Assembly (NCBI RefSeq): GCF_000009365.1 | Contig: NC_008260.1 | Coordinates: forward strand, 310,001-374,000 | Origin: Alcanivorax borkumensis SK2 | Lineage (GTDB): Bacteria > Pseudomonadota > Gammaproteobacteria > Pseudomonadales > Alcanivoracaceae | Direction of reading: 5' to 3' | Length of the DNA stretch: 64,000 bases | Part shown: piece by piece, positions 19,293 through 24,153 of the stretch | How the letters are laid out: each line of letters opens with the position of its first letter | Position numbering within the stretch: the stretch's first letter is position 1 | The notes under the pieces: model-generated | What the model was told of the DNA's origin: nothing | Databases searched by the model: none | Seen by the model: only the letters and a program-made list of their open reading frames with translations | Position numbers and translations under genes: made by a program

Positions 19293-19922
19293 ATGAAAGA
19301 CGTGCGCGAAGAATATCACGCTGACGGCCTGATCGAAGCCACCCTCCATGATGATCCGCTGGAGCAGGCCCGTCGTTGGGTAGATGAAGCGATTGAAGCT
19401 GAATTGCCGCTGCCCAATGCCATCACGCTTGCCACGGTGAGCGCCAATGGCCAGCCTTCTTCGCGAGTGGTCCTGCTCAAGGGAATCGAGAATCAGGGGT
19501 TTACCTTTTTTACCCACTACGACAGCCGCAAGGGTGAAGAGATCGCGGCCAACCCCAAGGTGTCCTTCACCATGTTCTGGCAGCCATTTGATCGCCAAAT
19601 GATAGTGATTGGCGAGGCGCAAAAAGTGGATCAGGAAGAATCAGACAGTTACTTCGCCTCCCGCCCCTATGCCAGCCAGGTGAGTGCAGCCATTTCCCCC
19701 CAGAGCCGACCCGCTAGCCGGGAATGGTTGGAGGCAGAGGTGTCGAGGCTGGAGCAGGAATTTCCTTCGGCGCCGGTGCCTCGCCCGGAGCAGTGGGGGG
19801 GCTACCGGATCATCCCCACCGAGATCCAGTTTTGGCATGGCCGCCCCAGTCGTTTGCATGACCGTTTTCGGTACGTGAAGCAAGGAGATGGCTGCTGGCA
19901 GCGTGAACGCCTTGCGCCATAA
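19293..19922 (+). CDS. pdxH: Pyridoxamine 5'-phosphate oxidase
   Basis: A 209-aa FMN-dependent enzyme that oxidises PNP or PMP to pyridoxal 5'-phosphate. The FMN and substrate motifs SSRVVLLKG, FFTHYDSRKG, SFTMFWQPFDRQ and the C-terminal WGGYRIIPTEIQFWHGRPSRLHDR-type region (split here as WGGYRIIPTEIQFW and HGRPSRLHDR) are all present. Length is close to that of other gammaproteobacterial PdxH proteins. It stands alone and is followed by the distal end of the ssrA island. Confidence 0.95.
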   Translation: MKDVREEYHADGLIEATLHDDPLEQARRWVDEAIEAELPLPNAITLATVSANGQPSSRVVLLKGIENQGFTFFTHYDSRKGEEIAANPKVSFTMFWQPFDRQMIVIGEAQKVDQEESDSYFASRPYASQVSAAISPQSRPASREWLEAEVSRLEQEFPSAPVPRPEQWGGYRIIPTEIQFWHGRPSRLHDRFRYVKQGDGCWQRERLAP

Positions 19923-20020
19923 GCTTGTGCTCACAACGCCACTACACATCGTTGGCGGACGGCTAATGAGCTGAAATACGTGATAGCTTCTTCTGCTTTG
20001 CGAGGCTTTTCCGGTGCCAT

Positions 20021-20074
20021 AAAAAAAGCGCAAGCCAAAGATAGCAAGAATATGGTGCTATCAATGGCTTGCGC
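20021..20074 (-). terminator. Displaced original ssrA terminator
   Basis: On the minus strand a long hairpin has an outer stem GCGCAAGCCA/TGGCTTGCGC and an inner stem GATAGC/GCTATC, followed by seven T. It directly follows the truncated ssrA 3'-end copy at 20081-20111. It therefore looks like the native terminator of ssrA, now 2.3 kb from the intact tmRNA gene because of the insertion. It may now end apeA-island or leftward transcripts. Confidence 0.75.
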
Positions 20075-20111
20075 CTTCTTTGTTTGGTGGGCCGGCGGGA
20101 ATCGAACCCGC
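20062..20111 (-). repeat. Distal att copy: duplicated ssrA 3' end
   Basis: The minus strand reads GCGGGTTCGATTCCCGCCGG, then CCCACCAAACAA, and ends AAGCCATTGA. It repeats the ssrA 3' end and its downstream flank at 22379-22428, with one base missing in the acceptor stem and differences between ACAA and AAGCC. This is the expected far attachment site of an element integrated in tmRNA. Confidence 0.85.
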
Positions 20112-20227
20112 TTCTCGAACTGGTCAATCTGACACTAATTTACACTTTCTCATATAAATCAGTTGGTTATGATTTGGTCGGTGAGCTTTCTGGCACATAA
20201 AAGCACTGCTAAATGGACAAAATGTGG

Positions 20228-20461
20228 TCACTTTGAGGGCTTTGAGGCAGCCAGTTTAGCCCGGTTGCAAGCATCGAGGGACGTAGCGAAGTAGATGTGC
20301 TTTTGCTCGTATGGAAGCCATATCGAAACGATGCCAGCTTTCTCAAGATATAAATCGACCCTAGCATCTTTATTGGCCTCAAGAAGCATCTGAGGGGGAG
20401 AACTCATGCAATTTGCAGAGCCCGGTATTGCTATCAAGTATCCACCAATGTTGGCTTGCAT
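20228..20461 (-). CDS. Orphan small ORF in the ssrA island
   Basis: A 77-codon frame starting at ATG 20461 with no good Shine-Dalgarno sequence. The product is mixed in charge, with a region of KDARVDLYLEKAGIVSIWLP that looks like genuine protein, and two Cys. I recognise no family. It lies between the distal att copy and the integrase remnant, on the same strand as the HEPN gene. It may be a remnant of a longer gene or a small accessory gene. Confidence 0.3.
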   Translation of the reverse strand: MQANIGGYLIAIPGSANCMSSPPQMLLEANKDARVDLYLEKAGIVSIWLPYEQKHIYFATSLDACNRAKLAASKPSK

Positions 20462-20674
20462 GAACGGTGGAGCAAATCAGTGTGACAATCAATGAAATAC
20501 ATTTCATAGTTTTTTTCTATGTCAGGGCGGGTGAAGATCCAGACGCTCTAGTTTCGCATGCGAAATCTAAAGCATTTCTTTGCCGATGGGAGGTGAGTGA
20601 ATCCACATTTCTGTAGATTGATCATTCTTCTGAAGATTGAGGGCAGGTTGAGAGAATTTCGGCTAATAGTTCTT

Positions 20675-20897
20675 AGCGCTTTTCGTAGAGCATTGATTGC
20701 TTCGGGAATTAAGCTGCCAAAAGGACAGTCTGAGCATGTTTTGCGTAAGCCATTTCGCAATGAATGGTGGAAATATTCTAACGCTGCAAAGAATTCTGGG
20801 GCATGCCTCGATCAATATGACCATGAGATATGCCCACCTGTCGCCTGATCACCTGCAGGATGCTGTGAGGCTAAATCCTCTCTCAACTGTCAGTTAA
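20675..20897 (+). pseudogene. Tyrosine recombinase (phage-type integrase) C-terminal remnant
   Basis: Two reading frames together give the end of a P2-type tyrosine recombinase. SAFRRALIASGIKLPKGQ and EHVLR lie in one frame (20675-20746). SHFAMNGGNILTLQRILGH and MTMRYAHLSPDHLQDAV lie in the next (20748-20877). The catalytic HxxR, HxxLGH-type segment and Tyr are still readable, but the frame breaks just after HVLR. Comparison with the usual HVLRHTFASHF suggests an 11-base deletion. The N-terminal two thirds are absent. The gene ends tail to tail with the HEPN gene. Confidence 0.82.
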
Positions 20898-22373
20898 GGT
20901 GGGTCTTAACTTGTTTGCTATGGCGTGGCTTCTTTCTATGATTTGGTCTAGAAGGCTTTCTTCAAAGCCGATAAGTTCCATGAATTTTATTTGAAGTATG
21001 GCCTCAATCTTCAGACAAACAGCATATAGTTTCGGTCCATCCAATAATTTATTTTCTAATGCTCTATCGTAGTGGGTTAGATAGTTTCTGTTGTCTTTTA
21101 TCATTTTTATCAGGGTTTCGACGTTTTCATTGCCGCCAAAGTATTTTGAGTGTGGGTCTATTACTCTTTCTAGTCGCTCTTTTAGGCTTAGTTCGTTCCC
21201 ATGAATCAGCATCGGGCTTAGCCGACCTCTAAAAGCCTCTGGGCAGCCTGTGATTATCTGTCGCCGTATATCTTTGAATGCGGCCTCATCCATAAACTTT
21301 TCATTAGATGTGTTTCTGTGGAGTGTCTCGATTGCTTGAGCAAGAGCAAGGAACCTTCCGTTTAGAAATCGGTAAGCTCCGGATTTTTGGCTGAAATAGA
21401 GGTTCAGTGTTGGTGTTATGACTTCATAGTAACGAAGCCATTCCGTTAGGTTTTTTTCTAGTGTTTCTTTGACTAGGCGAAGATGGAACAGCATGCTCGG
21501 AGCAAGAATTGACGGTGATTCTGTGCCGGGGTCATAGGCTCCATGGTAGAAAATCTTTATCGGTTTTAGAGTTTCTCTATTGTTGGCATGTTGGATTATA
21601 TATTTCTCATGTGTTCCGTTTATCTGAAGTAGGTGTGTTGTCTCGTCCATTGCGAAGCTGAAAAAGTTTTGGATGCGATGAATGAGACGAATTGCCTCTT
21701 CTATATTTGTGGCTTCTTCAAAGGAGAGTCGGAGTGAGGTTGTTGACTTTAATGTTCGAGTTCCAGGAGATCCAGAAGAAGAATAGTCGTAGATAATATG
21801 AAGTGATACTCCCTCACCAATGCGCAGATCAATGTTTTCTGGCTTCTTATACGTAATTGAAATTTCATTTCGATCTTCGCTTCGGCTTTGCGACAGCGAT
21901 GTTTGCCTTGCCCATTCATTCAGTCCATCAAATGAGAAGTCGACGCTATCGAATAGTGGTGGTTCTTTTTCACTGATGAGGGCACCTAGATAGGCGTTTC
22001 TAGCTGAGAGGGTAGTCCCTCCCAGAGTTGAGAGTGTTTGGTTGGTATATATACAGTCATCAACTGTTACATCCCCAAACTCTTGGACATGGCCATGTAT
22101 GCGCGCCTCCCCGTCATGGTTTCCAGCCAAAATTTGCGCTAGCTGTGTGGGCGAGTTCCTGAAGTGTCCAATGGTCTCAATTTCGACTTTGCCGCCGTTC
22201 GAAATGGTAATTTCCCCAGGGATTTTGTGATCTGGGGTGGAGGGGAGCCAGAAAAAGCCTGATTTTGAAATAGGGTTTGTGATTCTCATGCCCCAAGGCT
22301 TCCATGCTTTGTGGGTGGACAAGATTCGGACACTTGTCAGTGCGTTTTCTTTGAAAGATAAAGAATAAGCCAT
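20883..22373 (-). CDS. apeA: ApeA-type HEPN anti-phage protein
   Basis: A 496-aa soluble protein. The N-terminal half is beta-rich with HKIPGEITISNGGKVEIETI and IHGHVQEFGDVTVDDC, the pattern of the ApeA N-terminal domain. The C-terminal half is helical and holds the HEPN RNase motif RX4H as RNYLTHYD (Arg429-His434). ApeA is a known single-gene abortive defence protein; HEPN domains with RX4H are typically RNases. Length agrees with the family. The ATG at 22373 and a TTG at 22382 both lie in the loop or arm of a hairpin, without a Shine-Dalgarno sequence, about 29 bases past the tmRNA 3' end. The family call is from motif and layout memory, not a search. AT-rich codon use differs from neighbours. 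Confidence 0.78.
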   Translation of the reverse strand: MAYSLSFKENALTSVRILSTHKAWKPWGMRITNPISKSGFFWLPSTPDHKIPGEITISNGGKVEIETIGHFRNSPTQLAQILAGNHDGEARIHGHVQEFGDVTVDDCIYTNQTLSTLGGTTLSARNAYLGALISEKEPPLFDSVDFSFDGLNEWARQTSLSQSRSEDRNEISITYKKPENIDLRIGEGVSLHIIYDYSSSGSPGTRTLKSTTSLRLSFEEATNIEEAIRLIHRIQNFFSFAMDETTHLLQINGTHEKYIIQHANNRETLKPIKIFYHGAYDPGTESPSILAPSMLFHLRLVKETLEKNLTEWLRYYEVITPTLNLYFSQKSGAYRFLNGRFLALAQAIETLHRNTSNEKFMDEAAFKDIRRQIITGCPEAFRGRLSPMLIHGNELSLKERLERVIDPHSKYFGGNENVETLIKMIKDNRNYLTHYDRALENKLLDGPKLYAVCLKIEAILQIKFMELIGFEESLLDQIIERSHAIANKLRPTLTDS

Positions 22374-22395
22374 GTATTTCAATGGCTTATTCTTT
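22360..22395 (-). repeat. 13-bp hairpin over the apeA start, just after ssrA
   Basis: AAAGAATAAGCCA (22360-22372) and TGGCTTATTCTTT (22383-22395) form a perfect inverted repeat with a 10-base loop. On the minus strand it begins seven bases after the tmRNA CCA end. The 3' arm encodes the first codons of the HEPN protein, and the start codon lies at the loop edge. The T-rich but interrupted tail (TTCTTTATCTTTC) suggests a weak terminator for ssrA or a structure that hides the apeA start. Confidence 0.7.
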
Positions 22396-22428
22396 ATTGT
22401 TTGGTGGAGCCGGCGGGAATCGAACCCG
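22379..22428 (-). repeat. Proximal att copy at the intact ssrA 3' end
   Basis: This copy contains the functional tmRNA 3' end (GCGGGTTCGATTCCCGCCGG then CTCCACCA) and the flank running to AAGCCATTGA. It pairs with the distal copy at 20062-20111 as the direct repeat that bounds the island. Confidence 0.85.
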
Positions 22429-22758
22429 CGTCCGTCAGCAATCCATCTGCAGATCTACATGCTTAGCCATGTTTATTGATTTAAGCCTTCACAGCCCAAC
22501 TGGCAGGACGTGAAAGCCGGGCCCCTAAGAGTTTTAACAGCGCCATCCGGGGCGGACTTTGCTGCGAGCCTGTGTTGCGATGCTCGCCGCTCTTCCCCAC
22601 AGGCAGGGTCGATTGGCGATAAGCAGGGTTTAAGCTGCTAGTGCGTAAGAATCGTCGTTTGCGATTGCTTTAATATGCCACAAATGATTTACGAGACTCG
22701 TGACCTTCTCGGCATGCACCACAGAATTCAGTACCGGCGTCGAATCCAGGTCGGCCCC
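22402..22758 (-). ncRNA. ssrA: tmRNA (transfer-messenger RNA)
   Basis: A 357-nt one-piece tmRNA. The 5' end GGGGCCGACCTGGATTCGACG and the 3' end GGGTTCGATTCCCGCCGGC plus TCCACCA form the tRNA-like domain with an encoded CCA; the acceptor stem pairs with one G-U. The tag reading frame is at 22662-22630 and encodes ANDDSYALAA followed by TAA, close to the E. coli tag ANDENYALAA. tmRNA with SmpB rescues stalled ribosomes and tags proteins for proteolysis. smpB lies about 0.75 kb away. The 3' end is the integration site of the apeA island. Confidence 0.97.
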
Positions 22759-23504: not shown

Positions 23505-23984
23505 TTATCTCTGCCGCAGTACGCGCTGTTTCTGACGGTTCCAGTCGCGCTCTTTCTCTGTGGCGCGCTTGTCAAATTTCTGCTTGCCCTTGGCCAATGC
23601 GATGTCGCATTTGGCGAATCCTTTCTTCCAATATAGGCTCACCGGTACGCAGGTGAAGCCGTCTTTCTGTACCCCCCCAAATACTCGGCCTAGCTCACGA
23701 CGATGCAGTAGCAATTTGCGTGTGCGTGTCGGATCAGGGTTGACGTGGGTGCTGGCGGTGTTGAGTGGCTCGAAGCGGGCACCGAACAGAAAAGCTTCGC
23801 CGTTTTTTAGCAAGACATAGGCTTCTGTAAGATTGCCTTTGCCGGCACGCAGAGATTTCACCTCCCAGCCTTCCAGTACTAGGCCGGCTTCGAAGTGCTC
23901 TTCCAGATGATATTCGTGGCGTGCCTTGCGGTTTTGCGCAATGGTGGCCGACGGTGCTTTGGCTTTTTTGTTGGCTTTTCCCAT
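23505..23984 (-). CDS. smpB: SsrA-binding protein SmpB
   Basis: A 159-aa SmpB, the tmRNA partner that fits into the ribosomal decoding centre. Conserved elements are the N-terminal [46 protein letters not shown] and the basic C-terminal tail ([19 protein letters not shown]) that inserts into the empty mRNA channel. The start at 23984 (MGKANKK) is the family start; the longer frame adds seven residues. Its closeness to ssrA is the usual gammaproteobacterial arrangement, here stretched by the small membrane gene. Confidence 0.97.
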
Positions 23985-24153
23985 AGGGCGGCAATTATAG
24001 AGCAAGGGGTGACTGGCTGATAGCGGTTTGTCTGTCGGGGGCTGGTGTCGGGTAGGTGACTATGTACCAATGTTTACGATGTTACTGGCTGTCACTTGAG
24101 CCGCCCTGCCAAAAAAAAGACAATACCGCCACGCGAATAAGAGTAATGGTGTT

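Follow-up and report, generated by a model that had tools for sequence, protein, structure and literature searches.

An ApeA-type gene behind ssrA of Alcanivorax borkumensis SK2, probable cargo of a decayed phage element

We analyzed a 64,000-nucleotide stretch of the closed genome of Alcanivorax borkumensis SK2 (3,120,143 bases; NC_008260.1, positions 310,001 to 374,000; hereafter the window), with a focus on a small island at the gene for transfer-messenger RNA (tmRNA). The ssrA gene is complete (22402-22758, minus strand, 200 bits), and its 3' end is repeated imperfectly on the far side of the island: 54 nt at 20061-20114 and 22379-22432 (both minus strand) agree at 78% without gaps. The ssrA-side copy consists of the functional 3' end of the gene plus ∼23 nt of flank; the far copy is missing the U that pairs with G3 in the tmRNA acceptor stem (CCGGC-CCACCA). 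Bracketed by these copies are 2.3 kb of AT-rich DNA with a single intact gene, apeA, which encodes an ApeA/HEPN protein, and, from a tyrosine recombinase gene, only a frameshifted tail. The G+C content is 42 to 47% inside versus 49 to 58% in the surroundings (500-base windows), and thus two traits of genomic islands at tRNA and tmRNA genes are present, a flanking repeat of the gene's 3' end and a deviating composition. The attachment site of the element is the ssrA 3' end, and the present 3' flank of ssrA appears to be derived from the element. An earlier sequence-only reading had described a repeat of ∼50 bp of the tmRNA 3' end, an AT-rich interior, insertion at ssrA, a broken tyrosine recombinase lying tail to tail with a gene of ApeA type, and little other cargo; all of these descriptions hold, and the two open reading frames (ORFs) overlap by 15 bp.

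The apeA gene most probably occupies 20883-22289 (minus strand) and encodes 468 amino acids with ApeA_NTD1 and HEPN domains. In profile searches, the product matched PF18862 (ApeA_NTD1; E = 1.4e-57, 195.6 bits against a cut-off of 25.5) and PF18739 (HEPN_Apea; E = 9.4e-33, 114 bits against a cut-off of 24.4), in agreement with the N-terminal domain and the HEPN motif proposed earlier. The catalytic motif RNYLTHYD, of the Rx4H type, is encoded at 21066-21089 (minus strand), and its R, N, and H residues are invariant across 64 aligned ApeA sequences. The alignment of homologues has 35 invariant columns, a count that is partly circular because the set includes the window sequence. The best full-length PADLOC model is PDC-S58 (E = 4.9e-75), and the PADLOC "Cas13-ApeA" models match the HEPN half only. 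The gene is the sole match for the ApeA protein in its own genome, and, as expected of a single-gene system, no other recognizable gene save the integrase remnant lies between the repeat copies. The sequence-only reading had identified the gene correctly and begun it, probably too early, at 22373, for 496 amino acids; the longest ORF runs from a TTG at 22382. Among 120 proteins compared, the motif G.FWLP is present in 116, and in 97 of them the predicted start lies exactly 10 residues ahead of it, at the equivalent of residue 29 of the 496-residue version. The start is therefore probably the ATG at 22289, and the motif histidine is H406 rather than H434. The 28 extra codons fall in a hairpin and the leader, with the earlier start inside the hairpin by the repeat.

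The recombinase remnant (20672-20897, plus strand) is the C-terminal part of a tyrosine integrase, spread over two frames and the only portion of the gene left; a functional integrase is absent from the island. A piece at 20697-20897 (plus strand) matches PF00589 (E = 1.5e-6), and the remnant matches the phage families phrog_7269 (E = 1.7e-18) and phrog_1 (E = 7.4e-16). For comparison, 15 of the other 16 genomes in the genus were examined; G010 was left out, its contig stopping at ssrA. In one of these congeners, G003, ssrA harbors a prophage with an integrase of 329 amino acids, and pieces at 20672-20767 and 20748-20891, in the two frames, match the C-terminal part of that enzyme. We call the G003 prophage filamentous-type because it encodes a Zot-type ATPase (PF05707, E = 3.9e-19; Zot-like PHROG, E = 6.1e-58) and spans 11.7 kb between its attachment copies; a contig from IMG/VR (L096) carries an identical integrase. 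The integrase family is found in phages, both filamentous and tailed, and its relatives include a Zot-bearing prophage; the label "Pf-like" is taken from PMC7549136.

The integrase was found at E ≤ 1e-60 in 49 of 390 genomes of the order, and 30 loci were analyzed. At nine of these, a tmRNA gene on the opposite strand faces the integrase 123 to 1114 bp past the match, and five of the nine have an ORF of at least 80 amino acids, called mechanically, in between; a tRNA gene follows the integrase at eight loci, and nothing was found within 0.6 to 1.5 kb at 13. In the window, 1.5 kb separates the remnant from the tmRNA gene, and the slot is filled by apeA. Phage core genes (Zot-like ATPase, replication, coat) are not recognizable between the repeat copies, so the element is a relic at most and no prophage. 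The DNA between the far repeat and the integrase remnant (20115-20671) is debris devoid of recognizable genes, with no PHROG match below E = 0.06; when it was compared with the G003 prophage, only integrase, attachment parts, and chance-level matches were in common.

The flanks of the repeat copies record more than one event. Directly 3' of ssrA lies a perfect 16-bp AU-rich hairpin (22358-22397, minus strand; four G-C pairs, −19.7 kcal/mol, z = −7.8, no clear U-tract) in the place of the G+C-rich, terminator-like hairpin of the congeners; beyond the far copy, there is a strong terminator-like hairpin (20018-20084, minus strand). The hairpin directly behind ssrA has another sequence in 14 of the 15 congeners, mostly of the GGGCCACCCC or GGGCTATCCC type, and only in G003 is it built on GGCGCAAGCC. 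Since a host-type hairpin (AAAAGGGCTATCCC...) sits beyond the far attachment copy in G003, the GGCGCAAGCC hairpin is part of the prophage. The far copy of the window and its outer flank match the ssrA-side end of this prophage at 92% identity over 95 nt, and the far flank is 88% identical over 90 nt to L097. Queried with the far copy plus its flank (20015-20118), the whole genome gave only two matches at E ≤ 1e-5, the query region and the ssrA copy (E = 2e-9). A prophage-type flank outside the far copy, together with a different, AU-rich hairpin at ssrA, suggests that a filamentous-type element came first and the apeA element later, the latter probably inserting nearer to ssrA. The sequence thus points to at least two insertions in series at ssrA.

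Beyond the far flank, homology to the congeners resumes only at the stop of pdxH (19293-19922; the label was assigned here to the ORF), which lies on the opposite side of the island from ssrA; 19923-20020 lies between pdxH and the far flank. ssrA and pdxH converge and are 104 to 135 kb apart in the seven congeners whose ssrA contig also bears an intact pdxH (G004, G008, G009, G011, G012, G014, and G015) versus ∼2.5 kb in the window; G006 was omitted for its diverged, stop-bearing pdxH match, and the other congeners have the two genes on separate contigs. A 20-kb stretch from the ssrA-pdxH interval of G014 matches the A. borkumensis genome mainly near 2.81 Mb. The two genes that follow the ssrA-side cargo in 14 of the 15 congeners (see below) have no match in this genome, in searches run without a positive control. 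The proximity of pdxH, the displaced interval, and the unmatched anchor genes suggest that the neighborhood was rearranged and probably partly lost. Upstream of ssrA, annotated smpB genes match an ORF at 23505-24005.

We searched the ssrA flanks of the congeners over 14 to 15 kb in 14 genomes and 4.7 kb in G013. The sequence-only reading had called for such a comparison, and it revealed other genes behind ssrA in all 15 congeners and apeA in none (tblastn, E ≤ 1e-4). The slot ends with a 118-residue gene and a subtilase gene 1.4 to 13.3 kb behind ssrA in 14 congeners; the contig of the remaining one stops short. In 13 of the 15 congeners (L035-L049), the slot holds genes for restriction, for ShosTA, for HNH proteins, or for toxin-antitoxin systems, each with a match at E ≤ 1e-25; with HNH-alone loci excluded, the count is 10 of 15. 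EcoRII-like restriction enzymes occur in G002, G009, and G014, and by the same PADLOC model in G013; type IV restriction enzymes in G008, G012, and G015; a cytosine methylase in G004; and HNH genes only in G001, G005, and G016. The G003 prophage carries ShosT (E = 6.7e-46) and ShosA (E = 1e-96), a pair located at L037:4479-6025. G007 has a nucleotidyltransferase/HepT pair and a helix-turn-helix gene within an ssrA duplication, plus HNH; here (L041:1900-3760) 106 nt of the ssrA 3' end, duplicated at 85% identity, bracket ∼1.6 kb with no visible integrase. Among the slot genes examined, G006 and G011 have no clear defense gene.

Within 7 kb of ssrA, the slots contain 77 ORFs, 20 near ones of which were inspected singly along with some others. 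These ORFs match 114 PADLOC families, subtilase (nine members) being the commonest of the 25 listed; we take the subtilase to be a host anchor and not a defense gene. In a control set of 50 ORFs taken from elsewhere in the window, nine PADLOC families were matched (E ≤ 1e-10), without any restriction model among them. We conclude that the ssrA flank is a genus-wide, compact defense slot with changing content. In the congeners, it mostly holds DNA-targeting systems, which argues against a special partnership between tmRNA and RNA cleavage; the earlier idea that a ribosome-rescue gene hosts an RNA-cutting gene for a reason is not supported by this comparison.

Relatives of ApeA are found in few genomes of the order: 4 of 390 match at E ≤ 0.001, including the window genome, and one of the other three matches over most of its length (36%). 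In a protein search that scored the 8000 candidates sharing the most words with the query, 214 matched at E ≤ 0.001, and among the best 120 of these, self included, only P0002 exceeds 40% identity, at 73%. No match was found among 50,697 phage records, and 21 plasmid records match, all below 60% identity. The leader of P0002 is longer than and different from that of the window; its peptide SIAAGSTKQ resembles the window ssrA 3' end translated in another frame (SIPAGSTKQ). Read back from the protein, an ssrA-like CCA end would lie 104 nt from the conserved ATG, compared with 112 nt in the window, so the ssrA-apeA spacing may be a kept feature. To the left of the core, P0002 is not ssrA-like, as expected for attP or another junction, and its translated start hints at an attP-bearing circular form.

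We also inspected 42 other ApeA loci (38 genomic and 4 viral). Because 19 of them are shorter than 20 kb as their contigs end, the following counts of tRNA and tmRNA genes are lower bounds: a tmRNA gene is 4.3 kb away in one locus (Neptuniibacter), tRNA-Ser at 0.4 kb in another, and a tRNA gene at 6 to 7 kb in two; 38 have neither within the stretch examined. Five have a recombinase ORF matching a profile of the window's integrase family, the only family searched for. A tmRNA-ApeA partnership was rejected, as the 42 loci reveal no special association. In the Neptuniibacter locus (L076:10004-16040), apeA is part of a larger island, and the ssrA-adjacent gene is, by its appearance, a different integrase. 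In a viral contig (L092:6194-12640), apeA stands directly before a related integrase and beside a cytosine-methylase-like gene, both labeled from appearance.

How apeA may be expressed follows from its position: it is co-directional with ssrA and begins 112 nt behind the mature tmRNA end. The terminator-like hairpins of the G003, G007, and G014 flanks and of the window far copy fold at −28 to −37 kcal/mol and come with seven or more U residues. With the strong ssrA terminator replaced by the AU-rich hairpin, apeA may ride on ssrA transcription, and such read-through is plausible from the sequence. A promoter-like TTGAAA-16-TATCTT (22355-22382, minus strand) precedes apeA as a consensus match only; the region has six such sites versus 4.3 expected by chance. 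The missing U in the far copy could make island loss costly, as recombination upstream of this base would leave a defective tmRNA. That the element tied apeA to ssrA through read-through transcription, a kept spacing, and this cost is a doubtful proposition.

To place the missing U, we collected distal ssrA copies from two sets of loci: 12 loci at E ≤ 0.05, with copies in nine, and 39 loci at E ≤ 0.001 (a tmRNA gene was called in all but one), with five more copies; L037 and L041, common to both sets, were counted once. Three of the 14 copies (window, G007, and G398) lack the U of the G3-U pair, one (G030) has a substitution there, and 10 keep the base. All three gaps within the GGGTTC...CCACCA core fall on the same base (window 20085-20096, L041 near 3690, and L254), and the two Alcanivorax cases may be nonindependent. 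Acceptor-U loss as a general excision trap was rejected, given the 10 copies that retain the U.

We consider it likely that apeA was accessory-slot cargo of a phage element, most probably Pf-like, that inserted at ssrA after an earlier filamentous-type element and has since decayed. An element with a tyrosine integrase, most likely a Pf-like filamentous prophage, would have integrated into the ssrA 3' end, displacing the end of the earlier element from ssrA and bringing apeA in its accessory slot, between integrase and ssrA. Deletions would then have stripped the element of its phage core and of its integrase gene except for the tail, so that apeA and two attachment copies remained, and rearrangement or loss of the DNA beyond would have made pdxH abut the far copy. 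The island may now be fixed, to judge from its dead integrase. The apeA product is most likely a working abortive-infection RNase, its activity being predicted: it would act alone, the N-terminal domain sensing a product of phage infection and the C-terminal HEPN domain then cutting RNA, so that growth stops. The title of a preprint cited in PMC13405049 reports activation of ApeA by deoxydinucleotides; if this applies here, DNA degradation during infection would be the trigger.

Several observations weigh against this reconstruction. The integrase tail is the only phage gene surviving in the island; the case for a filamentous second element therefore comes from 73 integrase residues, and the best C-terminal matches of the integrase pieces are to enzymes other than that of G003. 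The interior DNA matches 20 phage records, with all 20 listed places over the integrase tail, and these include records that look like tailed phages; the large replication-type gene of L092 likewise suggests, by appearance, a tailed, P2-like prophage. The integrase family and a tmRNA gene occur together in none of the 42 other ApeA loci, 19 of them under 20 kb. On the protein side, Foldseek found no PDB match to ApeA at E ≤ 0.001, and the match to HepT lies in a range that may reflect no more than a common arrangement.

The sequence-only reading saw a primary mini-island, a tiny integrative element with one integrase and one cargo gene that arrived in a single insertion. The recognizable contents of the island fit this, but the integrase family lives in phages, its intact ssrA-borne relative in G003 belongs to an 11.7-kb prophage, and the far flank derives from the end of a second element, which makes for more than one insertion; we find a tiny element quite unlikely, and the island looks like the relic of a phage element that followed an earlier filamentous-type one. 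The G007 duplication, which surrounds its genes with no visible integrase, raises the alternative that the window repeat stems from a local duplication at the 3' end of ssrA, with no site-specific integration involved, and that apeA came by ordinary recombination. This is very unlikely: the two window copies are homologous only in the attachment core and ∼20 nt more, the integrase remnant belongs to a family that uses tmRNA genes, and a phage end forms the far flank.

Two further alternatives concern what ApeA does. It is unlikely that apeA is an inert leftover no longer under selection; everything around it has decayed and, of the 119 other homologues listed, P0002 is the only one closer than 40%, but 468 codons remain open and the catalytic residues are kept next to an integrase that is frameshifted and truncated. 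Somewhat less improbable is that ApeA mainly serves the element, through superinfection exclusion or prophage retention, and not the host. Accessory genes between boundary genes and attachment sites are the rule in Pf phages (PMC7549136), and defense loci are known in filamentous prophages (PMC11630473); against this, the element is dead in the window and apeA is nonetheless intact. A defense gene that began as cargo of a phage element can outlive the phage that delivered it, and the window would provide an example. The ssrA flank of the genus is a defined place for finding defense genes, and expression of this one-gene relic via ssrA read-through is directly testable.

Among the entries listed by literature searches, which covered few subscription journals and preprints, no paper dealt with an Alcanivorax ssrA defense slot or with ApeA at ssrA. 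The protein resembles known ApeA in both Pfam domains, the Rx4H motif, and its single-gene organization, and a form of ∼466 residues is common among the homologues listed; it differs in that PDC-S58 is its best full-length PADLOC model, "Cas13-ApeA" covering only the HEPN half. Some Pf phages are reported to insert at the tmRNA gene, where the attachment core is 28 bp long, and to carry accessory genes between boundary core genes and attachment sites (PMC7549136). The window shares with these prophages the tyrosine integrase, the tmRNA 3' end as attachment site, and an accessory slot between the two, but it lacks core phage genes and its integrase is broken; the text of that paper does not mention HEPN (ApeA was not searched for there). 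In Vibrionaceae filamentous prophages, 8.5% of variable loci have putatively complete defense systems (PMC11630473). The P. aeruginosa hotspot cDHS2 (PMC10250203), E. coli hotspot 9 (PMC10121019), and Shewanella ssrA elements (PMC5148205) are likewise tmRNA anchored, with ssrA as a landing site for elements that carry anti-phage genes; unlike these, the Alcanivorax slot is genus-wide, with a one-gene relic in the window species. Closest to the missing U is CP4So at Shewanella ssrA, whose excision leaves as its published lesion the loss of the U of the G-U pair, just as the distal window copy would delete this base on returning to ssrA; CP4So, however, is 36 kb long and excises (PMC5148205), whereas the window has a dead integrase. 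The pieces are thus of known kinds, and their combination is instructive and unsurprising.

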